Source of the DNA: Legionella drancourtii LLAP12
GTDB lineage: Bacteria; Pseudomonadota; Gammaproteobacteria; Legionellales; Legionellaceae
Assembly: GCF_000162755.2 (NCBI RefSeq)
Contig: NZ_JH413817.1
Coordinates: 137,550 to 196,793, forward strand
DNA: 59,244 nucleotides
Reading direction: 5' to 3'
Under the pieces are notes generated by a model that searched no databases, was not told where the DNA came from, and was given only the letters and a program-made list of their open reading frames with translations. The translations under genes and the position numbers were made by a program. The first letter of the stretch is position 1, and every line of letters starts with the position of its first letter. This document shows, piece by piece, positions 29,158-55,248 of this stretch.

Positions 29158-29234
29158 CGGGGCGTAGCGCAGCCTGGTAGCGTACTAGCATGGGGTGCTA
29201 GTGGTCGAAGGTTCAAATCCTTCCGTCCCGACCA
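29158..29234 (+). tRNA. tRNA-Pro (anticodon GGG)
   Basis: 77 nt including an encoded CCA. Acceptor CGGGGCG pairs with CGTCCCG (one G-U), followed by A-CCA. D-arm GCGCAGCCTGGTAGCG, anticodon stem CTAGC/GCTAG around the loop ATGGGGT (anticodon GGG, reading CCC), and T-arm AAGGTTCAAATCCTT all fold. The conjugative element begins directly after its 3' end, so this gene is the likely attachment site; the last ~25 nt would be the att core. Legionella elements are known to use tRNA-Pro. Confidence 0.95.
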
Positions 29235-30464: not shown

Positions 30465-30680
30465 TTAAATGGCCACTTCTGTTTCTTCCTGTTTGATATT
30501 ATTATTAATCCATTGTTCGATGCTTTCTATATGCCAAGCTAAGGTAGTTCCATTTAATTTAACTGGTCTTGGGAATTTACCAATTAACCACCAACGTCTT
30601 ATAGTTAACCGATCTCGACCAAGGATCTGCTCAAGGTCACTGATAAATAAAATTTGTTGCTTGAATTCAGTATGTTGCAT
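30465..30680 (-). CDS. alpA: AlpA-like DNA-binding regulator / excisionase
   Basis: 71 residues. A MerR-type helix-turn-helix near the N-terminus (LEQILGRDRLTIRRWW) followed by FPRPVKLNGTTLAWHIESIEQWI matches the AlpA family, which activates integrase genes or acts as excisionase in prophages and integrative elements. AGGGA precedes the ATG. Its upstream region carries the palindrome CTCGAATCGAG (30744-30754) shared with the lvrA promoter, suggesting control by LvrR. Confidence 0.85.
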   Translation of the reverse strand: MQHTEFKQQILFISDLEQILGRDRLTIRRWWLIGKFPRPVKLNGTTLAWHIESIEQWINNNIKQEETEVAI

Positions 30681-30882: not shown

Positions 30883-31047
30883 ATGAATTTACTAGATGTA
30901 ATAGAAAAGGCAGTAGGTAGTGAGTATTTCGATAATGCTGAATGTTCAGAATCATGTTTAGCAATGCAGGAAGCAAGCATGAATATAGAGCTTTCTTTAA
31001 ATCAATCTCAACAACCTAATGCAAACAAAGTTGTAACCATTAAGTAA
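30883..31047 (+). CDS. Putative borosin precursor peptide
   Basis: 54 residues from the ATG at 30883, which has a strong AGAGGA site 7 nt upstream; the in-frame TTG at 30826 has none. It begins MNLLDVIEKAVGSEYFDNAE (amphipathic helix), a middle with two Cys (AECSESC), a Gln/Asn-rich spacer and the tail NKVVTIK. Split borosins have a separate small precursor with a helical recognition part and a C-terminal core rich in Val, Ile and Thr, which the methyltransferase N-methylates on the backbone; this peptide fits that plan and sits 4 nt before the methyltransferase gene. No homologue was searched for. Precursor role is inference from position, length and tail composition. Confidence 0.7.
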   Translation: MNLLDVIEKAVGSEYFDNAECSESCLAMQEASMNIELSLNQSQQPNANKVVTIK

Positions 31048-31051
31048 TTAA

Positions 31052-31852
31052 ATGCACACACTTATTGTAGTAGGTTCTGGGATCAAGTCGATTGCTCATT
31101 TAACTGAAGAGACCAAAGTAGTTATTCAAAAGGCGGATAAGGTTCTTTATTTAGTAAATGAAGAAAACTTAAAGTCTTGGATTCAGCGAGAAGCTAAAGA
31201 GGCTGAATCTTTGGAACCTATTTATTTTAATTTTGATAAAAGAGCTGATTCTTATCATCAAATAACCACTCATATTGTTAACGAATATCAAAAAGCTAAA
31301 ACTCTTTGTGTAGTTTTATATGGTCATCCAACAGTATTTGCCGAGTCCGCTTTGAATGCAGTGAAAATGATCAAAGCAGACAATGGAAATGCGTTAATAT
31401 TGCCGGCAGTATCATCTATGGATTGTCTTTTTTCTGATTTACAAATTGATCCGGGGGAGCAGGGTTGTTTTGTAATGGATGCGACTGAGCTATTAATTTA
31501 TGAAAGGCAAGTTGATATATATGCACACAATATTTTTTGGCAAATTTCAAATTTGGGAATGCACGATATAAAGTACTCTCAAAAATTAGATATTTTATGT
31601 GGTTATTTATTAAATTATTATCCTGAAAATACGCTTGTTTGCATTTATGAGGCAGCTGTTCTGCCTTTGCAAAAACCACGAATTGAGTGGATTAAACTGC
31701 AGGAACTTAAGCAAGTAGAGATTAAACCGATATCTACTCTTTATATTCCCCCTATTGCTCAAAAAGCTATAAGTAAAAAATACCTAGAGCTTTTAGGAAT
31801 GGATATTCAAAACTTTAAATTATCTACTGAGTCGTACACATCCTCGAAATAA
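31052..31852 (+). CDS. Borosin-type peptide alpha-N-methyltransferase (OphMA family)
   Basis: 266 residues, tetrapyrrole-methylase fold. It parallels the fungal borosin enzyme OphMA from end to end: LIVVGSGIKSI (4-14) for LTIVGTGIESI, KRADSYHQ (63-70) for KSRMDTYTQ with Arg64 and Tyr68 at the catalytic Arg72 and Tyr76 positions, LYGHPTVFA (89-97) for FYGHPGVFV, LPAVSSMDCLFSDLQIDP (117-134) for LPGVSAEDCLYADLCIDP, and TLYIPP. Unlike OphMA it ends after the methyltransferase domain and has no fused substrate tail, as in split borosins. It would transfer methyl groups from SAM to backbone amides of the 54-residue peptide. No clear ribosome site precedes the ATG, so translation probably depends on the precursor gene ending 4 nt upstream. 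Confidence 0.85.
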   Translation: MHTLIVVGSGIKSIAHLTEETKVVIQKADKVLYLVNEENLKSWIQREAKEAESLEPIYFNFDKRADSYHQITTHIVNEYQKAKTLCVVLYGHPTVFAESALNAVKMIKADNGNALILPAVSSMDCLFSDLQIDPGEQGCFVMDATELLIYERQVDIYAHNIFWQISNLGMHDIKYSQKLDILCGYLLNYYPENTLVCIYEAAVLPLQKPRIEWIKLQELKQVEIKPISTLYIPPIAQKAISKKYLELLGMDIQNFKLSTESYTSSK

Positions 31853-33121
31853 TTTAGCATCGCCTGAGAAGTTGGTGTTGTTATCACAATACGAGAATGA
31901 AAACCGTTTATCTGATTCTAAAAGATCAACGGGGTTTCTTATTATCTGTTTTCCTGTTGATTTATAATGATAAAAAGAAAATTCAGTATCTTTACTAACA
32001 TGATAAAGAGGACTACCAAAGGCGTCACTATTCTCTTCAGTGAACTCGTCTTGATAAGCAAATAAAACATTTTTTAGTGTTTCGAGTTCGGTCAATGTGC
32101 TATTACTTTGATTTGTTTTAAATGTGTTTATTTTAGAAAAAGGGCACTGTAAGGGATAGTAAACACTATCATTTTCTTCATTTAGGGAAGAAGGCACCAT
32201 TATCGTTGGGGTATACTCAAGACCGTAACATTCATTATAAGCTTTCTGGATATCCTGGATTGGAAAATATTGTTCATCAACTGCTGGTTTTACACCAATG
32301 CCGGCTCCCATACAGATATTAAAGACATATTTTGCAGTATCCATTATAAAAGGAGTTGGTCGGAATCGATTGATTTTCTTTGCACTGAGAAACAAATCAT
32401 TACAGGAGGTATCATATGTATTCTGCATTAATTTTTTTCTTAATGACTCTGAAAAATATAGTTTTAATTTAAGCCATTGTTCATTATTCTTAACTTGCTC
32501 AATAAATTGCTCAGAAAAATAAAGAATTTCACTTTGCCAGTTACTTAAAGTATTTTTATTTTGTAGGATTTCTTTGAAAATAAGGTAATGCTCATAAGGC
32601 GACTTAGGGGCAGGTAATGATACATTAAAATATTTTTGAATTTTTGTATGTCTTCTTTGACATCCTATATTGGGGAGTAAAAAAGAAGATAAGGCACCTG
32701 AGGATACCGATAAAATATTATTATCAACCGTCTGATCTTCATCAAATATAACTTGCATGTTAAAAATGGCACCTGGTCCCTGTACGCAATCAGGAAAGAT
32801 TCTTTGATTTTCCCCAAAATAATGCCATTCACAATATTTATCTAAAATCATCCCTAAAGGAAGACTATTCTTTCCATATCCCAAGTGTTGAAATAATTCG
32901 TTGCTCGTATGTGTACTATCAATTTTTTCTAATCTCCCTGATTCTGTTGGTAAGTATGCATGATTTTTAATACCAAAATGTTCGCCAAAATCATATTGAG
33001 CAAGAAAAAAAGGAATGTCCCCTCCTGGAGTAATCTGCTCAATTACCTCGTAAATAGAAGGGTTGATAGTTCTTACTTTATTTTTGATTTCATCCCATGA
33101 AACTCGCTTAATTTTGTTCAT
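31820..33121 (-). CDS. Unknown 433-residue protein of the borosin locus
   Basis: 433 residues from the ATG at 33121 (AAGG upstream; a longer start adds 9 residues). It is convergent with the methyltransferase gene and overlaps its last 33 nt. No signal peptide or membrane segment. Features: GDIPFFLAQYDFGEHFG near 35-50, an aromatic-rich LDKYCEWHYFGENQRIFPDC (about 95-115), a polar helical middle, ICMGAGIGVKPAVDEQYFP (about 280-298) and a Cys-containing C-terminus. I do not recognise a family. Its place between the methyltransferase and the transporter makes a maturation, leader-removal or immunity role possible, but that is guesswork. Confidence 0.7.
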   Translation of the reverse strand: MNKIKRVSWDEIKNKVRTINPSIYEVIEQITPGGDIPFFLAQYDFGEHFGIKNHAYLPTESGRLEKIDSTHTSNELFQHLGYGKNSLPLGMILDKYCEWHYFGENQRIFPDCVQGPGAIFNMQVIFDEDQTVDNNILSVSSGALSSFLLPNIGCQRRHTKIQKYFNVSLPAPKSPYEHYLIFKEILQNKNTLSNWQSEILYFSEQFIEQVKNNEQWLKLKLYFSESLRKKLMQNTYDTSCNDLFLSAKKINRFRPTPFIMDTAKYVFNICMGAGIGVKPAVDEQYFPIQDIQKAYNECYGLEYTPTIMVPSSLNEENDSVYYPLQCPFSKINTFKTNQSNSTLTELETLKNVLFAYQDEFTEENSDAFGSPLYHVSKDTEFSFYHYKSTGKQIIRNPVDLLESDKRFSFSYCDNNTNFSGDAKLFRGCVRLSR

Positions 33122-33250
33122 TCCTAAAAACCTTATAAAACAAAGCACTTACAAATACCGCAATTTTATACAAGTAAATACATGTAAAAAAAATTTAATA
33201 CTAGCCAATTTTAATGGTAGAGTCACCACTAAAAGGACTTAGGAAATAAA

Positions 33251-34738
33251 ATGATTAAGACATTGCATAAAATGCCCAAGGGCGTAATACCACTCTATTT
33301 TATTCAAGCGTTTTCTACATTTTCATTTGCTATTCTCTATTCCTCCTTATCACTCTACGTTACTAAACAACTTGGTTTATCTAATACTGTTTCAAATAGC
33401 ATTGTGGGCTTATTTCTGGCATTTAATTATGCCTTACATTTGTTAGGGGGAGTAATAGGAGGACGCTTTCTAAGCAATCGTTCATTATTTTTTATTACTA
33501 CCATTCTGCAAAGTATAGGCATTATGTGTTTGGTTTTTTCACAAAGCTCACTTCTGTATATAGGATTAAGTTTGTTTTTGGTGGGATGCGGGCTTAATAC
33601 TACCTGCTACAACACTATGCTAGCGGATCGTTTTCATTCTACCGATAATCGAAGGGAAAAAGCATTTTTTTACAGCTATTCTGCGATGAACATTGGTTTT
33701 TTTGCGGGTTATATTATTAGTGGCTTTTATGATTATTCGAATCAATACCAACACATATTTTTTGCAAGCCTTGTTACTAATCTAGTTACTATAATTCTAA
33801 TCGCTTTTAATTGGGCTGCTCTTGAAGATAACAATAGTCTCTTATTAGATTTGAAAAATGATTCACGTCAGAAATTGAGAAATTGGATTGGTATAGCGGC
33901 TATTTTAATATTAGTGCCTTTTTTGACTGTGAGTTTTAATTCATCTGATTTTAGTAATGGCATGGTGATGGTGCTCAGTATTATTATGTTTTTTGTTATT
34001 TTATTCTTAGGTCACAAGCAAAAAATTAAAGCCGATAAACAAAAGATTAAGGCTTATTTAATCCTGACAGTTACTTCAATAATCTTTTGGATGATCTATT
34101 ACACAGGTCCTATGGGTGTAACTATCTTTATTAAAAATAATGTTGATAAGCATATTTTTGATTATGAATTGGCGACTCAATGGGTTTTAAATATAAATGC
34201 CTTGGTTATCATTGTGGGCGCACCGATTATGGCAATCGTTATTAACAAGCTGCAATCCAAAGGCTTCAATTTTTCTGTTTCTATGCAATTTGTATGGGCC
34301 TTTATAATTCTGGCATTTTCTTTCTTTTTCTTAGCTTGCGGCGTGACGTTTTCTGATAGTCACGGTTATAGCAGTCTTAGCTGGGTAATACTTCATTTAG
34401 TGGCTCAATCTATTGCCGAGTTACTAATTGGTCCAGTAGGGTATGCAATGATAGGGCGAATTGCCCCTGCTAAGTTACAAGGAATTCTGATGGGTACTTG
34501 GATGATGGTATCTGGGGTTTCGGCTTCATTATCATCTTATTTTTCTAATGCGATGATGAAAACAGACTCTATTGATCCTTTAATAACGAATGCTGATTAT
34601 TTTCATGTATTTAATCAATTGGGCATTTGGGCATTGATAGGCGGAGTATTTTTGTATTTTATTTCTGGAAAGATACGAAGTCTCATTGATGATACAAACG
34701 AACTTGATAGCAAATCGACTGAAACAGTTATTGCCTGA
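33251..34738 (+). CDS. MFS transporter of the POT/PTR peptide-transporter type
   Basis: 495 residues, 12-14 membrane helices. HLLGGVIGGRFLSNRSLFF sits where POT transporters have the GGxxADR loop, and FFYSYSAMNIGFFAGYIISG matches the second POT signature (FSxFYxxINxG). The usual ExxER proton-coupling motif in helix 1 is absent (YFIQAFSTFSFAILYSS), so it may work differently, possibly as an exporter. Divergent from the unknown 433-residue gene, sharing a 129-nt promoter region. A peptide carrier beside a peptide-modifying enzyme suggests movement of the product. Confidence 0.85.
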   Translation: MIKTLHKMPKGVIPLYFIQAFSTFSFAILYSSLSLYVTKQLGLSNTVSNSIVGLFLAFNYALHLLGGVIGGRFLSNRSLFFITTILQSIGIMCLVFSQSSLLYIGLSLFLVGCGLNTTCYNTMLADRFHSTDNRREKAFFYSYSAMNIGFFAGYIISGFYDYSNQYQHIFFASLVTNLVTIILIAFNWAALEDNNSLLLDLKNDSRQKLRNWIGIAAILILVPFLTVSFNSSDFSNGMVMVLSIIMFFVILFLGHKQKIKADKQKIKAYLILTVTSIIFWMIYYTGPMGVTIFIKNNVDKHIFDYELATQWVLNINALVIIVGAPIMAIVINKLQSKGFNFSVSMQFVWAFIILAFSFFFLACGVTFSDSHGYSSLSWVILHLVAQSIAELLIGPVGYAMIGRIAPAKLQGILMGTWMMVSGVSASLSSYFSNAMMKTDSIDPLITNADYFHVFNQLGIWALIGGVFLYFISGKIRSLIDDTNELDSKSTETVIA

Positions 34739-38845: not shown

Positions 38846-38905
38846 TATTTATGCACGAAAAGAGCTGTTTGTTGTTGAGTGGATATTGAAAAAGAAGAGG
38901 GAGAG

Positions 38906-39790
38906 ATGGATTTCATAGTTAATCAAAACGAAATGGCTGGGTTGTGTGGTTTAACGCACATCCAGCAATTAGTTTATTTTAGAGGGATTAAGCCGTACAT
39001 GAATGTGAAAACAGGCATAGTTGGGATTGATCGAGGTATTAGTTATCAATCCATTGCTGAACAGCTTTATATCGAACCTCATCAAGGCATTAAAAGCGTT
39101 AGTTTTTCTCGCGCTCAGGTACGACGTGCGGTGGCAGGTCTTGAACGGGCAGGGCTTATTCAATTTCTGTCTGAAGATCATACTTTGATTTTAAAATGCA
39201 TATTGGCAACAAGGGATTATTATGTCTCAAAAAAAGCCGTCACAAAGCCGTCACAGCAAGGCATCACTAAAAAATCTCAAAAAGATATTGAAAACACTGG
39301 CAATTTGGCAAATGCGACCTTAAAAGCCGGCATAGCAGAAAGTGCAAAAGCCGACATACCTCTTATAAACAATAATTATTTATATTTATTTAAGCAATTC
39401 GAAAAATTTTGGTCGCGTTTTCCAAACAAAAAATCCAAACAAAAAGCATGGAGTGAATTTCAACAAATCAATCCTGATGAACAACTTTTTGAAAAAATAA
39501 TCATCGCGATTGATGCGCAAATTAATAATCGTGAGGAACACAAGCTTTCTGGGGAATGGCTTCCCCCATGGAAGTATCCTGCCAATTGGTTAGCCCAGCA
39601 TTGCTGGAAAGATGAACTCTCAACCGTAATGACACAGGAGCAAAGTAATGCAAAGAATAAGCGAAGTAATGCAAAAAAATCTCCCAGTGAAATCTTCTGG
39701 GACACATGCGGTGATGCAGAGTTCGATTTTGCAGATGAAACACCCAAACAATCAACCCCAAGCAACGTCCTCAACTTCAGTAAAGACTGA
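38906..39790 (+). CDS. lvrA: LvrA, phage-replication-protein-like DNA-binding protein
   Basis: 294 residues from the ATG at 38906, which has AGGGAG directly upstream (a GTG at 38879 would add 9). N-terminal winged-helix region (about 1-95: SYQSIAEQLYIEPHQGIKSV, SFSRAQVRRAVAGLERAGLI). C-terminal half (about 165-240) reads FEKFWSRFPNKKSKQKAWSEF ending WKYPANWLAQHCWKDEL, which is the conserved block of phage replication (lambda O-like/DnaT-like) proteins. LvrA is described as part of a regulatory locus of Legionella elements, but the sequence also suggests replication. Its end overlaps lvrB by 143 nt. Confidence 0.8.
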   Translation: MDFIVNQNEMAGLCGLTHIQQLVYFRGIKPYMNVKTGIVGIDRGISYQSIAEQLYIEPHQGIKSVSFSRAQVRRAVAGLERAGLIQFLSEDHTLILKCILATRDYYVSKKAVTKPSQQGITKKSQKDIENTGNLANATLKAGIAESAKADIPLINNNYLYLFKQFEKFWSRFPNKKSKQKAWSEFQQINPDEQLFEKIIIAIDAQINNREEHKLSGEWLPPWKYPANWLAQHCWKDELSTVMTQEQSNAKNKRSNAKKSPSEIFWDTCGDAEFDFADETPKQSTPSNVLNFSKD

Positions 39791-40130
39791 GGCTCATGAT
39801 AAACGAATTGATACGTTGTTTATCCGTCTTGGCGCTATTTATGGCCATATCTGGTGGAGCAATTACCAAAATGAAAATGCTTTGTCTGTTGCCAAGAAAG
39901 AATGGTCTGACACTTTAAGTCGTTTTAATAATCAAATTCTTAAAGAAGTCTTACTGAGCATTCGTGAACGAAATGTTTTTCCACCTAGTTTGCCCCAGTT
40001 TTTTGAATATTGTATGGCCACGTTTAAACGTCATGAGCCTTATCGAGTTAATAGAGAGCCTATTCAGCCAGCAAGTTCTGATATTGCAACCAAGCACCTT
40101 AATGCCATGTTGCGATTCTTAAGACCTTAA
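39648..40130 (+). CDS. lvrB: LvrB, lambda-P/helicase-loader-like protein
   Basis: 160 residues with the ATG at 39648 behind GGAGCAAAGTA; shorter starts at 39669, 39714 or 39735 cannot be excluded, because the first ~45 residues (which overlap lvrA out of frame) are low-complexity. The conserved part runs from about 55: RLGAIYGHIWWSNYQNENAL, KKEWSDTLSRFNNQILKEVL and NVFPPSLPQFFEYC, with the W...W...L..F and PPSLPQF..C pattern of phage replication protein P/helicase loaders. Together with LvrA it looks like an initiator/loader pair. Confidence 0.75.
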   Translation: MQRISEVMQKNLPVKSSGTHAVMQSSILQMKHPNNQPQATSSTSVKTEAHDKRIDTLFIRLGAIYGHIWWSNYQNENALSVAKKEWSDTLSRFNNQILKEVLLSIRERNVFPPSLPQFFEYCMATFKRHEPYRVNREPIQPASSDIATKHLNAMLRFLRP

Positions 40131-40150
40131 CTTTAAAAAGGAGATTTTAC

Positions 40151-40360
40151 ATGCTTGTACTTACCCGTCGCGTTGGAGAACTAATACTAATCGACAAAGG
40201 TCAAATTGAAATCAAGGTTTTATACGTTCGCAATGGTCATATAGCCATAGGAATCAAAGCTCCTCTACATATAGACGTTGATCGCAAGGAAATTTTTATT
40301 AAGAAAATGACTAATCCTCAGATCGAAGCAGAGAAGGAATTCATTACAGAAACTAATTAA
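40151..40360 (+). CDS. lvrC: LvrC, CsrA-family RNA-binding regulator
   Basis: 69 residues. MLVLTRRVGELILI at the N-terminus and the GHIAIGIKAP and VDRKEIF blocks match CsrA (MLILTRRVGE, RIGV.AP, V.REEI), including Arg6-Arg7 and Arg44-type positions that bind GGA loops in mRNA. In Legionella, CsrA proteins on conjugative elements (LvrC) influence the life cycle and element mobility. AAAAAGGAGA precedes the ATG. Immediately upstream of the type IV secretion genes, whose first ribosome site contains CGGAAGGAG. Confidence 0.92.
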   Translation: MLVLTRRVGELILIDKGQIEIKVLYVRNGHIAIGIKAPLHIDVDRKEIFIKKMTNPQIEAEKEFITETN

Positions 40361-40369
40361 CCATCAGCA

Positions 40370-40392
40370 CCGGGCATGAAGCCCGGAAGGAG
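40370..40392 (+). promoter_or_regulatory. Hairpin with GGA-containing ribosome site before the first T4SS gene
   Basis: CCGGGC (40370-40375) and GCCCGG (40381-40386) pair around ATGAA, and the right arm runs straight into AAGGAG, the ribosome site of the PilL-like gene at 40399. The combined sequence CCCGGAAGGAG has two GGA cores, one at the stem edge, as in CsrA-bound leaders. LvrC, encoded just before, is an obvious candidate to bind it and control secretion-system translation. Untested inference. Confidence 0.5.
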
Positions 40393-40398
40393 TTTGTT

Positions 40399-40845
40399 AT
40401 GTCCAAGTTGCTATTAATCACTTCACTAAGCCTGCTTACATTGACAATTCATGCGGCCAATGATGTAACCCAGATTCACCGTTATGCCACCGTAGCTAAT
40501 AAACCTTTGGCTGCTCAAGTTAATCCTTTATTAGCAGTTCAACAAATTCATTTTCCACAAGAAGTTAAAACTGTTGGGGAGGCGATTGAATGGTGGTTGC
40601 ACTATTCAGGTTTTACTCTTGTGAGCAAAGAAAAACAACCTGAGAGCTTGCAAACTGTAATGCATCAGACCTTGCCTCAAATTCATAGAAACCTTGGCCC
40701 ATTAACAGTTAAAGGGGGGTTGGAAGTTCTTGCTGGTCAGCAAGTCTTCATGCTGGTTGAGAATCCCTTGTTACGCCAGGTGAACTTCAAATTAAAACCT
40801 GCTTATCAATCTGCTGTTAAGCCAGTGACAAGGAGTAAAGCATGA
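40399..40845 (+). CDS. PilL N-terminal-type conjugation protein (TIGR03748 family)
   Basis: 148 residues with a signal peptide (MSKLLLITSLSLLTLTIHA). YATVANKPLAAQVNPLLAVQQIHFP, then VGEAIEWWLHYSGFTLVS and LPQIHRNLGPLTVKGGLEVL, match the N-terminal domain of PilL-like proteins of PFGI-1-class elements. First gene of the mating-pair-formation operon, after a hairpin/RBS site; overlaps the next gene by 4 nt. A periplasmic part of the transfer apparatus. Confidence 0.78.
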   Translation: MSKLLLITSLSLLTLTIHAANDVTQIHRYATVANKPLAAQVNPLLAVQQIHFPQEVKTVGEAIEWWLHYSGFTLVSKEKQPESLQTVMHQTLPQIHRNLGPLTVKGGLEVLAGQQVFMLVENPLLRQVNFKLKPAYQSAVKPVTRSKA

Positions 40846-41444
40846 TTTTATTTAACGCCTCAACGAAATGGATAGCGATTGCAGCCCTTAATCTGGCTCT
40901 TGTCGTTGGTATGATTTTCATCATAGAACGTCCAGTTGACTCCACGAAAGACACAGAAATAATTAGTACTCGCTTAAATGACATTCAATCACAGCTTATC
41001 AACCTACAAAAGGAAGTTACAAAGCCTAGTGAAAAAATTGATTTGAGTTCGATCAATCAGGATTTCAATAAGCTAGCTTCTTTAATCGAGCAACTAAAAT
41101 CCAAGGATGACCAACTCCTAACTGATAATCGTACTGAACTAACACACAAGCTGGATGCTATTCATGAAGTCATTAATACCTTGGATAAAAAACAAAATCC
41201 CGTCAAATATCTCCCTGTGTCAGCATTACCATTTAAAGTATTGAGCATCGACAGTATCCAACAGGTCAATGTAGCCAGTGTTACCTATGACTTTAAGACA
41301 TTCCCACTAGAGAAAGGAGATAAGCTAATTGATTGGACTGTTTTGAATGTAGATTTTGGTAAGCAACGACTCGAACTGGAAAATAGTAAAAAAGAGTATG
41401 TTGTGGTGACCCTGGATACTGAGCAAGGTGATCAAAATGCTTAA
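40842..41444 (+). CDS. Membrane-anchored coiled-coil conjugation protein
   Basis: 200 residues. One N-terminal membrane helix (WIAIAALNLALVVGMIFIIE), a coiled coil (about 40-115, heptads such as LNDIQSQLINLQKEV), then a beta domain with LPFKVLSIDSIQQVNVASVTY and PLEKGDKLIDWTVLNVDF. This is the shape of PilP/TraP-like periplasmic proteins, but the family is not certain. Between the PilL-like gene and a TIGR03759 gene, overlapping both. Confidence 0.65.
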   Translation: MILFNASTKWIAIAALNLALVVGMIFIIERPVDSTKDTEIISTRLNDIQSQLINLQKEVTKPSEKIDLSSINQDFNKLASLIEQLKSKDDQLLTDNRTELTHKLDAIHEVINTLDKKQNPVKYLPVSALPFKVLSIDSIQQVNVASVTYDFKTFPLEKGDKLIDWTVLNVDFGKQRLELENSKKEYVVVTLDTEQGDQNA

Positions 41445-42276
41445 GTACTCTGTAATAGCAATATCCTTGTTTTCAACTCAGCTAGCTTTTGCTGAGTTGA
41501 ATATCCCTGGTATCAACACTCAATCGTTGAATACTCTTGCAGCACAAGACCAGACATTGGCGAAAGCTGGATTAACTGTTAATGACGATGACTTAACCTC
41601 AGAACAAGACATCAACAAAATTCAACTCAATGAACAACAACTTCATGAATCCAAGGTTTGGGACTTAACAATTGAAGAAGAAAAACGTTATGTCCTGCTC
41701 ATGCAAAATCGTAGCAAGATCTATTATCAGGGACTAAGACAAACTCCTCTGGATATTCTTGGCCTCAATGCCAGAAATGAAGCTGAGCGTAATCATTTTG
41801 CCGAATTAGCAGCAGCTCAGGAAGCCCAGAAAGTCTCTAAAAATATTGCCTGGAATAATGCATTTTATAAGGCCTATAACAAGCTCTTTGCCAATGTACC
41901 TGTTGTTGGTGATTTTGATCCGTCTCCTTACTCACCCTATGCCCATAAGTCTGTTCAACTAAATCAGGGAGACATCCTTTATCTGTTCATGAAACCAGAT
42001 GAAGCAGTCAAAACTATTTTGATGATTTTAACTGAAGCAGTTGAAAATACTCCTGATACTCGCTTACACCTCATGCTTTTGGATAGTGATGATTTATCAA
42101 TTCAATTATGGGCTAACAAGAATCAAATACCACAACATCTGATAAACAGTGGCCGTCTTACGCTCAATCATGGCGACCTGAATTATCAATCTCTAAAGGC
42201 TAATAAAAAAACCACCCCGTTGTTATTACTTTCTAAAAACGGCAGTTCTAGCGTTGTTGATCTGGGGAGGTTTTAA
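41437..42276 (+). CDS. Integrating conjugative element protein, TIGR03759 family
   Basis: 279 residues from the ATG at 41437, preceded by GAGCAAGG; the GTG at 41428 would add three. Signal peptide then the family block WDLTIEEEKRYVLLMQNRS, DILGLNARNEAERNHFAELA and QLNQGDILYLFMK. Known only from GI-type transfer clusters (PFL_4693 type), presumed periplasmic structural part. Overlaps its predecessor by 8 nt. Confidence 0.85.
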   Translation: MLKYSVIAISLFSTQLAFAELNIPGINTQSLNTLAAQDQTLAKAGLTVNDDDLTSEQDINKIQLNEQQLHESKVWDLTIEEEKRYVLLMQNRSKIYYQGLRQTPLDILGLNARNEAERNHFAELAAAQEAQKVSKNIAWNNAFYKAYNKLFANVPVVGDFDPSPYSPYAHKSVQLNQGDILYLFMKPDEAVKTILMILTEAVENTPDTRLHLMLLDSDDLSIQLWANKNQIPQHLINSGRLTLNHGDLNYQSLKANKKTTPLLLLSKNGSSSVVDLGRF

Positions 42277-42277
42277 G

Positions 42278-42736
42278 ATGAGAAAGATATCACTAATTGC
42301 AGGTTTATTGATGATTACTTCCTGCTATGCCTATCAAGTCATCGATAGGGAACACTACATCAAAGAATCGCAAGAGCAACTCACAGAAGAATCACTGAAA
42401 CTTCAAGCAAAACTGGATGCGCGATTACCTGCAACCAGCAAAGCAACAGCGGGCAAAGTATTAAAACGCAAATTAGAATTAATTAACTTTTCTTATTCTA
42501 TTTTTATCATTGGTGATGATGCTGTATCTCGTCAATGGTTAAAGGATCATGCACAAGAGTTAGAAAAAATAAATGCTCTGGGTTTTATTACTAATATAGA
42601 CAGCAGTTCCAGTCTGTTGGAACTTCAGGAATTAATCAAAGCGCCATTATTGCCTGCTAATGTAGATGACCTCTTAGCCATCTTCAAAGAAAGCCATTAC
42701 CCACTGATTTTTAATAAAGGTGAGATATGGCAATAA
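42278..42736 (+). CDS. Integrating conjugative element protein, TIGR03765 family
   Basis: 152 residues from the ATG at 42278 (GGGGAGG upstream; the TTG at 42254 lies inside the previous gene). Signal peptide ending SCYAY, then NFSYSIFIIGDDAVSRQWLK and LEKINALGFITNI, the core of the TIGR03765 (PFL_4695) family. Starts 1 nt after its predecessor's stop; overlaps the next gene by 10 nt. In related clusters traD follows here, but in this element traD has moved to the far end. Confidence 0.82.
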   Translation: MRKISLIAGLLMITSCYAYQVIDREHYIKESQEQLTEESLKLQAKLDARLPATSKATAGKVLKRKLELINFSYSIFIIGDDAVSRQWLKDHAQELEKINALGFITNIDSSSSLLELQELIKAPLLPANVDDLLAIFKESHYPLIFNKGEIWQ

Positions 42737-43425
42737 AAACTCAAACCCAAAAGAAATCCAAAAGAATCATCATGAGCTTGCTGTTACTTGTCTTCATAGG
42801 CTGGTTGATTTTATTGGGTTGGGCATTGAGTCTATGGGGAATGACTGGCTTTGATTCAGCCTGGCAAACCATCTATGAACTATCCAAACAACAAACTAGT
42901 GCAGTCGCAGAATTTAATGATGCTTCAGTGGCTGAGCGTTTCAAATCATGGGTTACCGCAGTACCAACTGAAAAGATGACTGACAAAGTAGTAAAAGTTA
43001 CTACCGTTATAAAAAATGAATTAAATACGGTTTTACCAGAAAACAACTCTGAATTAGATCAGATAGTAGATGACTTATTTACCACTACAAAACAAGTTGG
43101 GTTGCTTATCAGTCTGACTGCTCATGTGATGTTTATCAAGCTGATGATTATTCTGGCAAGCATTCCATTATTTGCTTTAGCTATGACAGCAGGTTTGGTC
43201 GATGGTTTGAATCAACGAGCCATTCGCACCGCCTCGTTGGGGCGTGAGTCCTCATATGTATTTCATCAATTAAATCGCTACTTCAAACGTGGTTTGCTGA
43301 TGTTATTGGCCTTATGGCTAGCAGTTCCTTTGTGTATTACCCCAGCACTAATGTTCGTACCCGTCAGTATCTTATTAAGTGTGATGGTTTCCATTACAGC
43401 CAGTCGCTTTAAGAAATATTTGTAA
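42727..43425 (+). CDS. Integrating conjugative element membrane protein, TIGR03747 family
   Basis: 232 residues with about four to five membrane helices: LLLLVFIGWLILLGWAL near the start, a soluble stretch (about 55-110), then IKLMIILASIPLFALAMTAG, DGLNQRAIRTASLGRESSYVFH and a final paired segment. GLVDGLNQRAIRTASLGRES is the conserved motif of the PFL_4697/TIGR03747 family. Inner-membrane component of the GI-type secretion system. Confidence 0.82.
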   Translation: MAIKTQTQKKSKRIIMSLLLLVFIGWLILLGWALSLWGMTGFDSAWQTIYELSKQQTSAVAEFNDASVAERFKSWVTAVPTEKMTDKVVKVTTVIKNELNTVLPENNSELDQIVDDLFTTTKQVGLLISLTAHVMFIKLMIILASIPLFALAMTAGLVDGLNQRAIRTASLGRESSYVFHQLNRYFKRGLLMLLALWLAVPLCITPALMFVPVSILLSVMVSITASRFKKYL

Positions 43426-43434
43426 GGAGAAAAA

Positions 43435-43761
43435 ATGAAAAGATTGTTTTTGATTTTAATGCTGAGCATGACTTGCTTTGCAACATACGCCAGTGAAGAA
43501 GCTCTTAATCAAACGTTGGTCAGAGTGATTAACCAAATTAACGCCATCATGCCCTTGCTGGATGAAGCCCAAACGGAAATTGAACCTAATACTCGAATCC
43601 AATTACACATTGAATCTTTTGAAGGATCTGATGGTAAGTCACATCCTGGGTTGCGTAATGATTTATTGGTTATCCGCAATTCACTAATTGATTACATCAA
43701 TAAGCCCGCCATCGAACCTAAAACTATCAAGCCTTTAGCGCTTGATTTCATTGGTAAGTAG
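43435..43761 (+). CDS. RAQPRD-family conjugation protein
   Basis: 108 residues with a signal peptide (MKRLFLILMLSMTCFATYA). Helical mature part with AIMPLLDEAQTEIEPNTRIQ, then GLRNDLLVIRNSLIDYINKP, close to the RAQPRD (TIGR01690) plan, in which R..LRxDL..IR.GI..Y is conserved, although the name-giving motif itself is degenerate. A GGAG site precedes the ATG. Confidence 0.75.
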   Translation: MKRLFLILMLSMTCFATYASEEALNQTLVRVINQINAIMPLLDEAQTEIEPNTRIQLHIESFEGSDGKSHPGLRNDLLVIRNSLIDYINKPAIEPKTIKPLALDFIGK

Positions 43762-43763
43762 CC

Positions 43764-44027
43764 ATGGGCAAAGTGGATATCGCTAAAACATTTGCCGCCA
43801 GCTTCAAGCAAGCGGCAGGTAATACAGCTGCTGGGGTGTACTCAAGTTGCATTCGGTTCATCGCGATCATGATGGTCATTATCGCAGTGATCTGGTGCAT
43901 CAATCACTTTATGGGCAATGAAGAAAGAGAACAAGATGGTTTTCTCATTCGTCTGGGCTCTCGTTCAATTCGCATTGTAATGGGACTTTGCCTATTCATT
44001 CTAATTTTAATAGTAAAGGGGAATTAA
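43764..44027 (+). CDS. Small membrane protein of the transfer apparatus, TIGR03758-like
   Basis: 87 residues, two membrane helices (CIRFIAIMMVIIAVIWCIN and IRIVMGLCLFILILIV) joined by a charged loop. Starts with VDIAKTFAASFKQAAG, as in the TIGR03758/DUF3262 family. Position between the RAQPRD gene and the pilin-like gene agrees. Probably minor pilin or channel part. Confidence 0.75.
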   Translation: MGKVDIAKTFAASFKQAAGNTAAGVYSSCIRFIAIMMVIIAVIWCINHFMGNEEREQDGFLIRLGSRSIRIVMGLCLFILILIVKGN

Positions 44028-44029
44028 CC

Positions 44030-44416
44030 ATGAAAAATAAAAACGTCCAGTTGAATCAATGGTGGCAAAAAATCGGTACGGGTTTTATCAGTTTAAACTA
44101 CGCACCAGCCCTGTTTGCTGATAATTGGTTCCCTAAAATTTCTAATGCTGATGATATTAGTGACGGCAATAAAAGCATGATGACGGTGACAGGAAATTAC
44201 GTCAGACAAGGATTGGGATTATTACTCTTTATTGCTGCGGTAATGAGTTTTATCAAGTTCATCACAACAGTTCAGCATGGTATAGAGGAATCCAAGAAAA
44301 ATGACGGTTCGATGGTGGCTTTTGGTACTTTTGCGGTGATGGGTATTACTTATCTGGCAATCAGTATTGTTGCAGGGTACGTGGGTTATACCATGATTAC
44401 CAAATTCAAGATTTAG
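44030..44416 (+). CDS. Pilin-like conjugation protein (TIGR03745 family)
   Basis: 128 residues from the ATG at 44030 (AAAGGGGA). Signal-like N-terminus (about 20-35: GFISLNYAPALFAD), then two membrane helices (GLGLLLFIAAVMSFIKFI and FAVMGITYLAISIVAGYVGY). Matches TIGR03745 (DUF2976), the small two-helix protein taken as the VirB2/TraA-like pilin of GI-type systems. Starts 2 nt after the previous stop. Confidence 0.8.
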   Translation: MKNKNVQLNQWWQKIGTGFISLNYAPALFADNWFPKISNADDISDGNKSMMTVTGNYVRQGLGLLLFIAAVMSFIKFITTVQHGIEESKKNDGSMVAFGTFAVMGITYLAISIVAGYVGYTMITKFKI

Positions 44417-44425
44417 GTGGCTGCC

Positions 44426-44788
44426 ATGAACCGACCTTCATCACGCCATCTGTCTCATGATTACGAAGCCTACAAAGGGTTAAGTCTGCGTGAACTATTC
44501 TGGATTGTCATTGTAGCAACGCCAGGTACCAGCTTGCTTTTTACCTTAAGCGGTATACCTGCAGGCTACCCTTTGGCTTTTGGTTGCGTTGGTTTTTTGG
44601 TGGGTTTTGTGTTGTCCATTACGGTTTGTCCAAAGCGTGTTGCCCGATTAAAAACGGGCAAACCTTATGGTTATCTAATGAAGAAAACCATTTTAGGGTT
44701 TGCACGTTGGGGCATAAGAACTTCGCCTTATCTTTCTCATAAAGGCATCTGGCAAAAATCCAAATTAGTAGGTGAACCTCATGTTTAA
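44426..44788 (+). CDS. Conjugation membrane protein, TIGR03750 family
   Basis: 120 residues from the ATG at 44426 (AGGTGG 6 nt upstream; the GTG at 44417 is abutted to the previous stop). LSHDYEAYKGLSLRELFWIV then two membrane helices, GVGxLVGFVLSITVCPKRVARLKTGKPYGYL-like middle and FARWGIRTSPYL. This is the VirB3-like PFL_4702/DUF3487 family. Overlaps the next gene by 8 nt. Confidence 0.8.
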   Translation: MNRPSSRHLSHDYEAYKGLSLRELFWIVIVATPGTSLLFTLSGIPAGYPLAFGCVGFLVGFVLSITVCPKRVARLKTGKPYGYLMKKTILGFARWGIRTSPYLSHKGIWQKSKLVGEPHV

Positions 44789-45443
44789 TTACTGGAAGAA
44801 AATCGATAGCTTAAACCATCTCAACCGCCTTTTATTGGCCTTTATCTCAGTGCTTGTATTCATTGTAGCTGGACTGATTATCACTCTGGTTAAATCCCCT
44901 AATCGTTATGAATTTTGGCTAACCCCTTCAATGGCAACAAATGGTGGATTAATTAAAGCAGAGCAAATTCCTGCTGAGTATGTGCAAGGGTTTGTTGCAA
45001 CGTTAATGCCTGCTTTAAATACCTGGTCCAAATCAGGTAAAAGTGAGTTCACTAATAACCTCGCCAGTTTCCACTATTACTTCACCCCACGTCATAGACA
45101 TTTAATGGAGCAAACATTGGTAGCGTATAAAGATGCTCAACTCTTCAATAGAGTTCAAGTGGCTAGTCTTTATCGCTTTATGGAAGACAGTGATGTGAAA
45201 GCCATAGGCAATAACATGTGGGAAGTACATCTGGTTTTACGCATCACGCAAAGACTTAAAGACAATAGCCCTATGGTCATTGCTGACAAGGTAGTTGATT
45301 ACCATCTTCGAGTAGTCAAAGTGACCTTATCTCGCCTGCAAAATCCCTTTCAATTAGCTCTCGATGGTTATACCCAACCAGAAGCCCTGGTCAAAGATTT
45401 GTTAGCTACACCTTTGGAGGAAAAACAACATGACAAAGTATAA
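44781..45443 (+). CDS. Conjugation protein, TIGR03746 family (VirB5/TraE-like position)
   Basis: 220 residues from the ATG at 44781 (AGGTGA upstream). N-terminal membrane helix (LLLAFISVLVFIVAGLIITLV) then a soluble domain: VQGFVATLMPALNTWSKSGK, LASFHYYFTPRHRHLMEQ, NMWEVHLVLRITQRLKDN and VVDYHLRVVKVTLSRLQNPF. This matches PFL_4703/DUF2895, a TraE-like bridging protein of the transfer channel. Confidence 0.83.
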   Translation: MFNYWKKIDSLNHLNRLLLAFISVLVFIVAGLIITLVKSPNRYEFWLTPSMATNGGLIKAEQIPAEYVQGFVATLMPALNTWSKSGKSEFTNNLASFHYYFTPRHRHLMEQTLVAYKDAQLFNRVQVASLYRFMEDSDVKAIGNNMWEVHLVLRITQRLKDNSPMVIADKVVDYHLRVVKVTLSRLQNPFQLALDGYTQPEALVKDLLATPLEEKQHDKV

Positions 45444-46215
45444 ATGGTTGTTCGTATTAATCAGTGTTTTGGTCAGTATGGAGGTTTTCGCACTCGATGC
45501 CGAGCATGTGTTATGGGATAAAACGCCTATTCATTTGAGTATTTCTTTAAATGAGGAACGATTAGTTCATTTCCCCCAAGCCATTAGCATTATCGACAAC
45601 GAAGCTGGCGAAAAAATCGCAGTATTAAAAATTCAGGATGCTCTTTATCTTAAAGGAAAGGAATCTTTTGATAACAAACGCCTGCTCGTTCAGCTTATGC
45701 CCCAAGGCGAAGTGATTATTCTTAACTTATCTGCCAATGAGAAAATCACCGCCAATAAACCTGTAGAAATCTTGTTGGAAAATAAAGAAGAATCTAACAA
45801 TAATCAACCGGAAACGGCTAACAGTTTTGATATCAACTCAATCACATTGACCCGTTTCGCTATCCAATCCCTATATGCCCCACAAAGACTATTAGTCATT
45901 CCTGAAGGGGTTGGTCGTATTCCCATGCAAACCAGAAAAAAAATAAGTCTGATTTTTGGTGCCAGTATGGAGTCTCGTCCTTTGATTTCATGGCATGGAG
46001 GTGCCTTTTATGTCACAGCGGTCGAATTAAAAAATCTGTTGAATAAAGAGGTAGTTGTTGATCCTCGTCGCATGGTGGGAAATTGGCAAACCGCTACCTT
46101 CTATCCCACCAATACATTAGCACCACGAGGTAAAGAAGACACAACCACCGTATTTCTGGTTTCGGATAGACCATTTAATGAGGCCTTGGCTACTGGTAGG
46201 GAGTTTGTACGATGA
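45430..46215 (+). CDS. Conjugation protein, TIGR03749 family (TraK-like)
   Basis: 261 residues with a signal peptide (MTKYKWLFVLISVLVSMEVFA). The N-terminal half (HVLWDKTPIHLSISLNEERLVHFP, then ALYLKGKESFDNKRLLVQLM) resembles secretin-associated TraK proteins; TRFAIQSLYAPQRLLVIPEG and VDPRRMVGNWQTATFYP belong to the TIGR03749/PFL_4704 family. Overlaps neighbours by 14 nt and 4 nt. Confidence 0.8.
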   Translation: MTKYKWLFVLISVLVSMEVFALDAEHVLWDKTPIHLSISLNEERLVHFPQAISIIDNEAGEKIAVLKIQDALYLKGKESFDNKRLLVQLMPQGEVIILNLSANEKITANKPVEILLENKEESNNNQPETANSFDINSITLTRFAIQSLYAPQRLLVIPEGVGRIPMQTRKKISLIFGASMESRPLISWHGGAFYVTAVELKNLLNKEVVVDPRRMVGNWQTATFYPTNTLAPRGKEDTTTVFLVSDRPFNEALATGREFVR

Positions 46216-47555
46216 AGAAAAATGCCGGATTAAAAGTATTAACTAGTGCTGTAGTAGGCGTCGCTGCTTTGATACTAATGAATAGTGGTCATCATTCATC
46301 TGTACCTGATAAACAACAAAGCGATCCTAATAACTTAAATGAAGCCATAGCCAGTCAATTCAATGACAATATTCGTGATGTTGCGGCCAGACAGCAAGAG
46401 ACTGAAAAGAAACTGGCGAGCCTTGAGGCGCAGAATAAAATGCTCAAGGAGCAAAACACTCAAGGAAACATTAATGCACCGCAAACCAACAATCCAGAGT
46501 TAACCAAAGAGCTTGATGCCCTAAAAGAACAAATCGCAGAACTTAAATCCTCACAGGAACAACAACCTCAGGATCAACCTTATTCAATTAATGGTGAACC
46601 AGCAAAAAAACCAATTAAAAAAAGCACTATTAAAGACATAGATCAGTTACTTATGAAACATGAAAACAATCAAACCGAACTTGCTTATTGGGACAGACTC
46701 AATGCCAAGCGTAAATCTTTAACCGAAAAAACTAAAATCAATCTGAAAAAAACAGAAGTAAAAAAATCTATTCCTTTCTACACCATTCCAGCTGGATCGG
46801 ATCTTGGTCACACCACTTTATTATCCGCATTAATTGGTGAAGTTCCAGTGGAAGGAAAATTAATGCAACCACTTTTTCCCTTTTCAGCAGTTATTAATCG
46901 AGGGGATTTAATGGCTGCAAATGGCATCCCATTACCGCCTAATATTTCAGGGATGAAGGTCAATGGCTATGCCATAGGAGTAGGCTCATTCCTCGATAAC
47001 ATCAGTTGTGCACGAGCTTATGTCACCTCTGCTTTATTTGTCTTTGATGATGGCCATTTTGTAACCGTCGGCAAGGAGCAAATGAATGGAACCGCTGAGA
47101 TGATTAATAACGAAAGTCTGGGTTATCTGACTACTGCCTTCGGCAACCCATGCATCAAAGGCCAATATTTTACCAATGCTCCGCGTGTATTAACCGCCAT
47201 GATTGCAGCAGATGGGGTTAAGGGTTTTGGTAATGCATTGTCTCAATGGCAAATGACCTACACGGCCAATGACAATGGCGGAACTGCTACACCAACAGGT
47301 TCTATGGGTAAGTACGCTTTAGGCGGTGCGTTATCCCAAGGATCAGTCAAAGCAGCTGATTGGCTGGAAAAAAGGATTCAGGGTAGTTTTGACATGGTAT
47401 TTGTTCCTGCCAGTGTTGCTTATAAATCAGGGTATAGACCCAATCAATTTTCATTTCATTTAACACAAACCATCAAACTCGATAAAGAAGCGAACGGGAG
47501 AGTATTAGATTATGGCCATTCACAACAAACTACGCATGATTTTAGCCTTAGGTAG
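46212..47555 (+). CDS. TraB-like conjugation protein, TIGR03752 family
   Basis: 447 residues. N-terminal membrane helix, a coiled coil (about 50-120: LASLEAQNKMLKEQNTQ, ELDALKEQIAELKSSQEQ), a Pro/Gln linker, then the beta-rich TraB/VirB10-like domain: FYTIPAGSDLGHTTLLSALI, GEVPVEGKLMQPLFPFSAVI, FDDGHFVTVGKE. Connects inner and outer membrane parts. Overlaps the following lipoprotein gene by 44 nt. Confidence 0.85.
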   Translation: MKKNAGLKVLTSAVVGVAALILMNSGHHSSVPDKQQSDPNNLNEAIASQFNDNIRDVAARQQETEKKLASLEAQNKMLKEQNTQGNINAPQTNNPELTKELDALKEQIAELKSSQEQQPQDQPYSINGEPAKKPIKKSTIKDIDQLLMKHENNQTELAYWDRLNAKRKSLTEKTKINLKKTEVKKSIPFYTIPAGSDLGHTTLLSALIGEVPVEGKLMQPLFPFSAVINRGDLMAANGIPLPPNISGMKVNGYAIGVGSFLDNISCARAYVTSALFVFDDGHFVTVGKEQMNGTAEMINNESLGYLTTAFGNPCIKGQYFTNAPRVLTAMIAADGVKGFGNALSQWQMTYTANDNGGTATPTGSMGKYALGGALSQGSVKAADWLEKRIQGSFDMVFVPASVAYKSGYRPNQFSFHLTQTIKLDKEANGRVLDYGHSQQTTHDFSLR

Positions 47556-47901
47556 CACATTGACTTTGAGTGCGTGTGCTTCTTCGATAGTAGCCTCCAA
47601 AGCAATACCAGAAGGAGGTTTGACTGTCAGTCAGCTCTATCAGCAAAGCATTAGCGAACCAACACAAAGTTGGTCTGTAAAACGAACACCAAACAAGCCT
47701 GTCAATTATGAAGGGTATACACGTGATGCCTCTAATGAAATTCAGAATTTATTTAAGCCCTTAGATAACCCTCAAATTCCAATTTATGTGTTTCCCCATG
47801 TGGCTTTAATTGGTGATGAACAATTGATTAAACCTGGCTACACCACAGGATTTTTTCTCTACAAACAAAACCAGTTTGCTTTGGCATCTGAACAATATTG
47901 A
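47512..47901 (+). CDS. Conjugation-region lipoprotein, TIGR03751 family
   Basis: 129 residues. Signal and lipobox LSAC (Cys22), then SELYQQS-like helix, NYEGYTRDASNEIQNLFKPL and FPHVALIGDEQLIKPGYTTGF, the constant part of TIGR03751 lipoproteins, the VirB7-like stabilizer of the outer-membrane core. The 44-nt overlap with the previous gene means its N-terminus is encoded by the same DNA as the TraB-like tail in another frame. Confidence 0.82.
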   Translation: MAIHNKLRMILALGSTLTLSACASSIVASKAIPEGGLTVSQLYQQSISEPTQSWSVKRTPNKPVNYEGYTRDASNEIQNLFKPLDNPQIPIYVFPHVALIGDEQLIKPGYTTGFFLYKQNQFALASEQY

Positions 47902-47911
47902 GGGGGATGGT

Positions 47912-50710: not shown

Positions 50711-51713
50711 CCATTCTATATTACTTGCATTGTTCTTTGGTTCCACAGTGCTGCATGCACAGGAAAGTATTAAACCACCTAATCCTATTAGCAGTTTTGG
50801 TATTGCAACCAAAGTCATTAGTAAAATCTTTAATAATAGCCATTATAAAGTGATAGGCAGTTGCACTTGGGCGGTTGGCAAGTTGCCACCCAAACTGGTT
50901 CCTGTGCCTGCTGTGGAGCAGTTTCTTCCAGATTTAATTGTCACCGTTGCCAATAGACCTGAAACCAATCCATGGATAGAGGCTAAAGCTTTGTTTGAAA
51001 ATCCGGCCAGTCAAACGTTGTATAAACAAACTTATAAGTTGGCGACAGGTTCAGATCTGGGTTTTGGTGATGATGCAGGACAGATTAACTCAATGCACAT
51101 TAATGATGAGCGAACCAGAATCGTTGATGTGATAGGTAGTCCTGCTGGATTGTATCGTTTTCCTTATCTTTCGCACCGTCCCGAAACACGATTCGGATTT
51201 CCCTATTACATTAGTGAAGCTGATGCTGTATCTGATAGAACTGAAATAGCTGAAATTGCTTATATGGCTACTCATCCTCAATTACTGTTTAACCACGATA
51301 TTGGCAGTCAGACTGATATCTGGGGACATGAAACTCCACGACTAATGAGGGTAACGCAACCTTCACGGTTTCGTGCCTCAATAGTTGCTGCCATGCATGC
51401 TGCCGATATCGTTACCAATAAAAACAGTCTGCATGTCACCCAAAGTACCAGCAATTCTTGCGGCCCAAATTGTGTTGTTTCCAATGTGATTTTTGACCCA
51501 AAACGTAAGCAGGTAATTTGGCAGGAAGTCTATCCCAAGAGTCGTAATATAAACCCAACTGACTCAAGTGATATGGGCATAGAAGATGATAAAGCAGGAA
51601 ATGGAAATTATGTCTTTGTGGTTTGGCGTAAATATCGTGGCTGTGTTCATCATGAAGGAAAGTACATCCGTGCTTTGTCATTTCCCAAAGTAGGTCAACC
51701 TCAAAAACGATAG
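50700..51713 (+). CDS. TraU-like conjugation protein, TIGR03756 family
   Basis: 337 residues from the ATG at 50700 (ATGGAGG upstream, inside the VirB4-like gene). Signal peptide (LLALFFGSTVLHA), GSCTWAVGKLPPKLVPVPAVEQF then DLIVTVANRPETNPWIEAK, FPYLSHRPETRFGFPYYISEAD, and a C-terminal half with Cys pairs (NSCGPNCVV; RGCVHHEG). Periplasmic TraU-like role in channel function. Confidence 0.85.
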   Translation: MRINHSILLALFFGSTVLHAQESIKPPNPISSFGIATKVISKIFNNSHYKVIGSCTWAVGKLPPKLVPVPAVEQFLPDLIVTVANRPETNPWIEAKALFENPASQTLYKQTYKLATGSDLGFGDDAGQINSMHINDERTRIVDVIGSPAGLYRFPYLSHRPETRFGFPYYISEADAVSDRTEIAEIAYMATHPQLLFNHDIGSQTDIWGHETPRLMRVTQPSRFRASIVAAMHAADIVTNKNSLHVTQSTSNSCGPNCVVSNVIFDPKRKQVIWQEVYPKSRNINPTDSSDMGIEDDKAGNGNYVFVVWRKYRGCVHHEGKYIRALSFPKVGQPQKR

Positions 51714-51722
51714 GAAGAAATT

Positions 51723-53111: not shown

Positions 53112-53112
53112 T

Positions 53113-54681: not shown

Positions 54682-54692
54682 GTCAAATAACT

Positions 54693-54902: not shown

Positions 54903-54913
54903 AAGGATTTTCC

Positions 54914-55246: not shown

Positions 55247-55248
55247 TA

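Follow-up and report, generated by a model that had tools for sequence, protein, structure and literature searches.

Backbone N-methylation is prized in drugs, and borosins are to our knowledge nearly the sole gene-encoded route to peptides that carry it; the products of bacterial borosin loci are, as far as we know and in line with PMC8429565 and PMC11285071, largely undescribed. Split borosins are known as types IV to X from passages of two papers (PMC11395268, PMC11285071) and are defined by a precursor encoded separately beside the enzyme, as in SonM/SonA from Shewanella oneidensis (type IV), for which passages of one paper describe a free-standing methyltransferase of ~263 aa adjoining the precursor SonA, whose leader contains a helical borosin binding domain (BBD) (PMC8429565). 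Here we describe a locus of Legionella drancourtii LLAP12 in which a 54-aa peptide, a 266-aa methyltransferase, a 433-aa partner protein and a POT family peptide carrier are encoded together on a stretch of 59,244 nt of contig NZ_JH413817.1 (the window in the following, to which all coordinates refer). Homology, active-site residues, the conserved precursor, the conserved gene association and the setting beside a tRNA gene make it quite probable that this is a split-borosin-like locus for a ribosomally synthesized and post-translationally modified peptide (RiPP), travelling on a Legionella-type genomic island as part of its cargo.

With SonM/SonA the locus shares the free-standing methyltransferase with its adjoining separate precursor and the Tyr/Arg/Tyr/Tyr active site, whereas its precursor is shorter (54 versus 71 aa) and without a detectable LigA-like BBD, and the core NKVVTIK, the partner protein, the POT carrier and the location on a genomic island set it further apart. 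The fused fungal enzymes OphMA and dbOphMA have the same methyltransferase domain, but the enzyme of the window is bacterial and carries neither a fused clasp nor a core. Two rhizobial plasmid loci of SonA type (L002, L003) likewise encode a separate upstream precursor, next to an enzyme 34–36% identical to ours; their precursors are, however, of the SonA/LigA type, the partner was not found there (a tblastn search of plasmids matched only Legionella), and genes for a TauD-type oxygenase and a prolyl oligopeptidase lie nearby in L003. Plasmid loci of YcaO-TfuA type (pLLO and relatives) contain the same partner family (~25% identity) and a POT carrier that is 43% identical, with YcaO, TfuA, ThiF, ThiS and ATP-grasp genes standing in place of the methyltransferase.

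No paper joining 'borosin' and 'Legionella' was found in a search that did not extend to the surveys of types V to X, which may list Legionella. Passages of the literature joining TfuA, YcaO and Legionella describe no such partner, the main text of a TfuA genome-mining paper contains 'Legionella' 0 times (PMC8120280), and a figure legend on Legionella F-type conjugation regions marks genes ycaO and tfu as having no known function (PMC3218107). Judged from its sequence, the enzyme is a new member of a known enzyme family and not a new kind. What is new here is a family of short precursors that have one core or two, together with the shared partner and carrier, and the greatest novelty lies in the partner family that the loci have in common. 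According to the initial annotation, a mobile locus with this uncharacterised partner and transporter would be new; modules like it occur widely in the genus.

The methyltransferase and its putative precursor

Searched against all PDB chains, the 266-aa enzyme matched dbOphM best (E = 4.5e-38, aligned over residues 3–248 of 266), which bears out the likeness to OphMA proposed in the initial annotation. SonM (1.4e-35), constructs of OphMA (1e-35 to 2e-34) and MroMA (~6e-35) are further matches; all 25 distinct PDB sequences at E ≤ 2e-34 are borosin enzymes, with scores of 122–134 bits, and the next match is a subunit of NADH-quinone oxidoreductase at 6e-4. The enzyme is free-standing without a fused tail. 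Its R64 and Y68, as well as YGHP at residues 90–93, stand exactly where they had been annotated, and Y58, R64, Y68 and Y90 are present in all 53 Legionella-type enzymes. This term covers 53 of 60 non-duplicate enzymes, some of them from gammaproteobacterial metagenome-assembled genomes, the other seven coming from the non-Legionella plasmids L002–L007; among these seven the Arg is kept in six and the Tyr of YGHP in five. Via the alignment with dbOphM and the OphMA numbering the four residues pair with Y58, R67, Y71 and Y93 of SonM. These SonM residues are the ones studied in the passages on that enzyme (PMC8429565). By sequence, the 266-aa protein is a borosin-type backbone N-methyltransferase.

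Among the excluded plasmid enzymes, those of L005 and L006, megaplasmids of Azospirillum and Mycetohabitans, have the borosin-type methyltransferase domain within proteins of 738–798 aa that are followed by a gene annotated as StrG. On a Serratia plasmid (L007:4714-4947) a 77-aa peptide with three near-identical HPRLQAAAPMNLAKVIGGF repeats is encoded directly 5' of a distant relative of the methyltransferase, and a 2OG-Fe(II) oxygenase gene is located nearby.

The 54-aa peptide gene ends 4 nt before the methyltransferase gene and has AGAGGAAATAGGG directly 5' of its ATG. Each of the 53 Legionella-type enzymes is preceded, at a distance of no more than 160 nt, by a short open reading frame (ORF), and sorting these peptides by pattern gave group A with 34 members including that of the window, group B with 14 and group C with five. 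In the 14 group-A peptides that were aligned, the N-terminal motif LLDxIExAVGxEY is combined with a QP-x-x-NK(I/V)V-x-I core located at the C-terminus or close to it. The core pattern N(K/T/S/I)(I/V) occurs in all 34 group-A peptides against a mean of 8.6 and a maximum of 19 after shuffling, figures that refer to a pattern picked after viewing the peptides and to a set in which many members are close relatives and not independent. Half of the group (17/34) shows two cores, each pair being 14 residues apart (e.g. L057), and some of the second cores are degenerate. Group-B peptides end with motifs like ADMSRVVR, ADRTTIFEI or a doubled SDMSHVxP and group-C peptides have an ACE motif near the end, the peptide in both groups having been taken, by a loose rule, as the longest ORF of 55–110 aa near the enzyme. 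For five gap-free 54-codon peptides, dN/dS was 0.22–0.67 across 10 pairs and the lowest pN/pS (0.24) was found in the last 13 codons (residues 42–54), and these substitution ratios indicate that the precursor is under purifying selection. Because the strong PDB matches of the enzyme are borosins only and the precursor shows such a dN/dS with a low pN/pS at the core, we regard the observation as more than chance.

From these data we propose that the 54-aa peptide and the methyltransferase are translated together. The enzyme would bind the N-terminal leader LLDxIExAVGxEY and methylate, in an S-adenosylmethionine-dependent manner, backbone amides in the C-terminal NKVVTIK, most likely at Val or Ile. 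The leader would then be removed, the POT carrier would move the short N-methylated peptide across the membrane, and the partner would act on or recognise the finished backbone-modified peptide. All of these steps, from methylation and its sites to the role of the partner, are inferred. Short products are predicted from the genus-wide occurrence of tiny precursors, their conserved or duplicated cores and the recurring carrier. A Pfam scan of the four locus proteins detected neither YcaO nor TfuA, and no macrocyclase was recognisable among them. As no SonA-type leader is detectable in the precursor, we give the locus no borosin type, and a structural equivalent of the SonA binding domain may be present within ~40 residues.

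The partner protein and its gene association

The view that the module is a one-off can be rejected, since the same four genes are found in L014, L016 and L017, the search for them having been suggested by the initial annotation; L015 has them as well, including its peptide. Genomes were searched in three sets, namely 45 of the genus (that of G001, the source of L014), 143 of the family and order in one tally, and a sample of 369 from the class in which few candidates were scored per genome. Within the genus the enzyme occurs in 33/45 genomes at 66 places and the partner in 35/45 at 83 places, and relatives of the module are common there. A partner lies within 8 kb of 55 of the 66 enzyme places, convergent in 54 of them, and 56 of the 83 partner places have an enzyme nearby. 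By rough chance expectation, with 83 partner places in ~165 Mb, fewer than one of the 66 enzyme places would have a partner nearby. In G007 and G022 the partner and POT genes are at one place and the enzyme at another. TfuA was found in 17/45 genomes at 21 places, with a partner within 10 kb of 19. Beyond the genus the partner is present in 55 of the 143 family and order genomes and in 24 of the 369 of the class sample, including G001 and G126 of the family itself. Out of 38 partner loci from the family and class, six contain the enzyme (L166, L173, L175, L176, L179, L180), L168 has ThiF-YcaO-TfuA and L159 has TfuA within 8 kb.

Genome contigs scanned with the partner alignment yielded 21 loci: five with the window-type enzyme and partner (L014–L018, L018 being partial), three others with enzyme and partner (L021–L023), ten with YcaO and TfuA (L024–L033; no ThiS or ThiF found in L033) and three in which neither enzyme nor YcaO-TfuA was found (L019, L020, L034). 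The same kind of scan with the enzyme alone had no match, probably because the patterns were too specific. The enzyme had no tblastn match at E 1e-5 in 50,697 phage records, and the partner-alignment pattern scan of viral contigs gave none. On plasmids, tblastn with the partner matched eight records, all from Legionella. The L. israelensis plasmid encodes an MFS carrier, a 64-aa peptide, the methyltransferase and a convergent 445-aa partner (30% identical, 2e-70); the other seven are from other species and typed as conjugative, and the five examined have the partner with a POT carrier, ATP-grasp, ThiS, ThiF, YcaO and TfuA. The carrier of the window, with its relative in pLLO, is unlike the MFS carrier of L. 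israelensis. Many loci of group B have an MFS gene, ~1.2 kb long, between enzyme and partner. A multi-spanning protein of 350–540 aa was encoded within 3.5 kb of the partner in 11/12 enzyme loci, 11/17 TfuA loci and 13/25 others (after dropping duplicates and loci in which the sequence flanking the partner fell short of 4.5 kb on either side) and near 0/15 window genes, which form the whole control as the in-locus control had 0 genes; several of the misses have a carrier slightly farther away.

The N-terminal half of the partner is predicted by a structural model to be a cyclic-nucleotide-binding-like beta-roll, the best fold match of which has 8% identity, and the phosphate-binding cassette residues of that family were not seen conserved by eye in the partner alignment A2. 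Across the family, Lys, Glu, His, Asp and Cys residues are conserved. A PDB profile search returned just a designed protein at E 1.3, and Pfam on 17 members gave three chance-level matches in one member each (E 0.15–0.39), with no DNA-binding family among them. An NCBIfam hint at tryptophan 2,3-dioxygenase (E 0.01) was dropped, as it had no support from Pfam over the 17 members or from the PDB profile search; the 50 fold matches listed do not include this enzyme either, though that does not prove it absent.

As for other surroundings of the partner, the YcaO-TfuA loci with a POT carrier (L009:2537-11319 and L024–L033, most with ThiF, ThiS and ATP-grasp) are located on Legionella plasmids and in genomes, and no precursor was found for them in the gaps examined. 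A 64-aa pLLO gene considered as RiPP precursor was rejected, being helix-turn-helix-like (GerE 0.015, below the cut-off) and giving no alignment with the window peptide. L111–L117 represent a second, divergent YcaO-TfuA class (TfuA 32–38% identical to that of pLLO) with the partner convergent on TfuA and, in six of seven, a 470-aa protein, the one scanned having no Pfam match. In L104 (8774-13521) the partner lies beside an aspartate decarboxylase, ATP-grasp enzymes of two types (D-Ala-D-Ala-ligase-like and L-amino-acid-ligase-like), an Asp/Glu racemase and an MFS carrier, possibly an enzymatic short-peptide pathway; by eye, L123 and L124 hold similar arrangements. In L107 (8701-11343) the partner adjoins a protein weakly resembling AfsA, a phosphopantetheine-carrier protein and an uncharacterised 491-aa protein. 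Five genomes of 1.7–2.6 Mb (G172, G205, G215, G372, G438) carry the partner in three or four copies, and those copies that were mapped have no adjoining borosin enzyme or TfuA.

Weighing the readings

Several observations count against a split borosin acting together with the partner. No protease is recognisable among the four Pfam-scanned proteins, and the group-A profile (A3) gave 0 PDB matches up to E = 10, so that a SonA-type leader stays undetected. Precursors of groups B and C share only loose core similarity with the window peptide, and that of L. israelensis yields no alignment with it. The group-B alignment A4 (10 members, two of them rhizobial) touches SonA at E 0.4–0.55, to which we give no weight because Pfam LigA matches just 2/10 members, as many as there are rhizobial peptides in A4, and presumably those of L002 and L003. 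The partner gene is convergent and not co-transcribed with the enzyme gene; at 11 of the 66 enzyme places no partner lies within 8 kb, the enzyme place being a fragment or next to a contig end in some cases and nearly full length in others, and 8 of the 83 partner places, two at contig ends, have neither enzyme nor TfuA nearby. The same applies to 30 of the 38 family and class loci within ~6–8 kb, several of which are limited by contig ends and one of which (L163) has two ATP-grasp genes and POT. With so many such loci the partner is not tied to these two chemistries. That the enzyme is an ordinary tetrapyrrole methylase or a YabN-like protein is extremely improbable. It does match Pfam TP_methylase (2.3e-13), which is the common superfamily, and reaches 80.9 bits with the NCBIfam YabN model, but the cut-off of that model is 525 bits, CbiE (17.8 vs 92.9 bits), CobF (14.7 vs 195.8) and CobJ (12.9 vs 246.35) are likewise below theirs, and the 31 PDB sequences listed up to E = 10 include no cobalamin enzyme. 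Grouping with cobalamin or uroporphyrin methylases, which the initial annotation had named as the refuting outcome, was thus not observed, and an ordinary cobalamin/porphyrin methylase is rejected on these scores and the borosin-only strong matches, the borosin active-site residues also being present. The enzyme could instead modify something else than the adjacent peptide, be it a different protein, a side chain or a terminus, with the short ORF being regulatory, as the precursor of the window lacks a recognisable BBD and precursors differ strongly between groups; we hold this for improbable in view of the short ORF upstream of every Legionella-type enzyme, the duplicated cores and the lowest pN/pS at the core end.

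For the partner, a role in finishing or binding the short peptide is most likely, not that of a methyltransferase helper, since a family that also occurs beside YcaO-TfuA loci must tolerate two chemistries; whether it is a finishing enzyme or has another role is about even. It is rather unlikely, though the strongest of the other proposals, that the partner is a receptor or regulator and the short methylated peptide a signal. In this reading the POT symporter would import the peptide and the CRP-like N-terminal domain of the partner would sense it, perhaps with participation of the 80-aa protein encoded 3' of the carrier. The absence of a DNA-binding family from the 17 members, the low identity of the best fold match and the phosphate-binding residues not conserved in A2 speak against it, and the conserved Lys, Glu, His, Asp and Cys would suit an enzyme too. 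Immunity or self-protection against membrane-active or otherwise toxic short peptides would fit a protein that often accompanies modifying enzymes and carriers, but it is less probable still given the enzyme-like conservation and the genomes with several partner copies whose mapped loci lack borosin enzyme and TfuA.

Gene layout and the island setting

Table 1: Features of the locus and its surroundings in the window.
Feature	Position	Strand	Remarks
tRNA-Pro (ggg)	29158..29234	+	ARAGORN; likely island attachment site
71-aa ORF	30465..30680	-	divergent from precursor peptide gene
Putative precursor peptide, 54 aa	30883..31047	+	conserved N-terminus LLDxIExAVGxEY, C-terminal core; ends NKVVTIK
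Putative core QPNANKVVTIK	31012..31044	+	residues 44–54 of precursor
Predicted borosin-type backbone N-methyltransferase, 266 aa	31052..31852	+	Y58, R64, Y68, Y90
Partner protein, 433 aa	31820..33121	-	no significant Pfam match
POT/PTR2 family peptide transporter, 495 aa	33251..34738	+	PF00854, TIGR00924
Recurrent small protein, 80 aa	34900..35142	+	3' of transporter; helix-turn-helix-like by eye
lvr-type regulatory and island type IV secretion genes	38879..57243	+	ORF list, inspection only

An ORF check of the window recovered the four genes of the initial annotation at their positions (Table 1). As a correction, the partner gene lies on the minus strand (33121 to 31820), where it converges on the methyltransferase gene with the 3' ends overlapping by 33 nt. 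The transporter passes the curated cut-offs of PF00854 (89.7 vs 27 bits) and TIGR00924 (192.3 vs 130.2 bits). Look-alikes by eye of the 80-aa protein (79–82 aa) were found in 9 of 11 POT-carrying loci of one set, the exceptions being L124, for which none was listed, and L137, which ends at the contig end, and also in both L105 and L106; the gene probably belongs to the module. The 71-aa ORF looks AlpA/excisionase-like by eye, and similar ORFs, again by eye, adjoin the module in L134, L136 and L138. Between the module and the lvr genes an ORF at 35504-37954 encodes an 816-aa SMC/RecF-like ATPase (by eye), which may be a further cargo gene or one for defence.

This check confirmed that the precursor is encoded separately, and likewise the partner, the transporter and the position of the island beside a tRNA gene, the island genes by inspection only, with an lvrA-like gene at 38879 and a csrA-like gene at 40151. 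Passages on Legionella genomic islands report that LlbGI and LdrGI-b are associated with tRNA-Pro and show a layout of lvr and genomic island type IV secretion system genes like that of the window (PMC3864950), the likeness being the tRNA-adjacent position, the lvrA- and csrA-like genes and the island-type conjugation genes, on the window side as judged by inspection. In contrast to our locus, these passages name no peptide-modification cargo, and 'oligopeptide' appears 0 times in the main text (PMC3864950). No exact second copy of the 3'-terminal 14–30 nt of the tRNA gene, as a direct repeat at attR would give, was detected in the window; the island may extend further than the window, and mismatches may occur in published repeats.

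The module would be a new cargo class for Legionella islands and plasmids. The partner links two otherwise unrelated backbone modifications, and the fate of a peptide after its modification becomes testable. We tentatively suggest, at somewhat less than even confidence, a plug-in family in which the partner and a POT or MFS carrier form a constant chassis and the borosin methyltransferase or YcaO-TfuA is exchanged, leading to very short protease-proof products. If so, Legionella would make peptides with backbone methyl groups or thioamides, in some cases two from one precursor, and the partner would finish or sense them.

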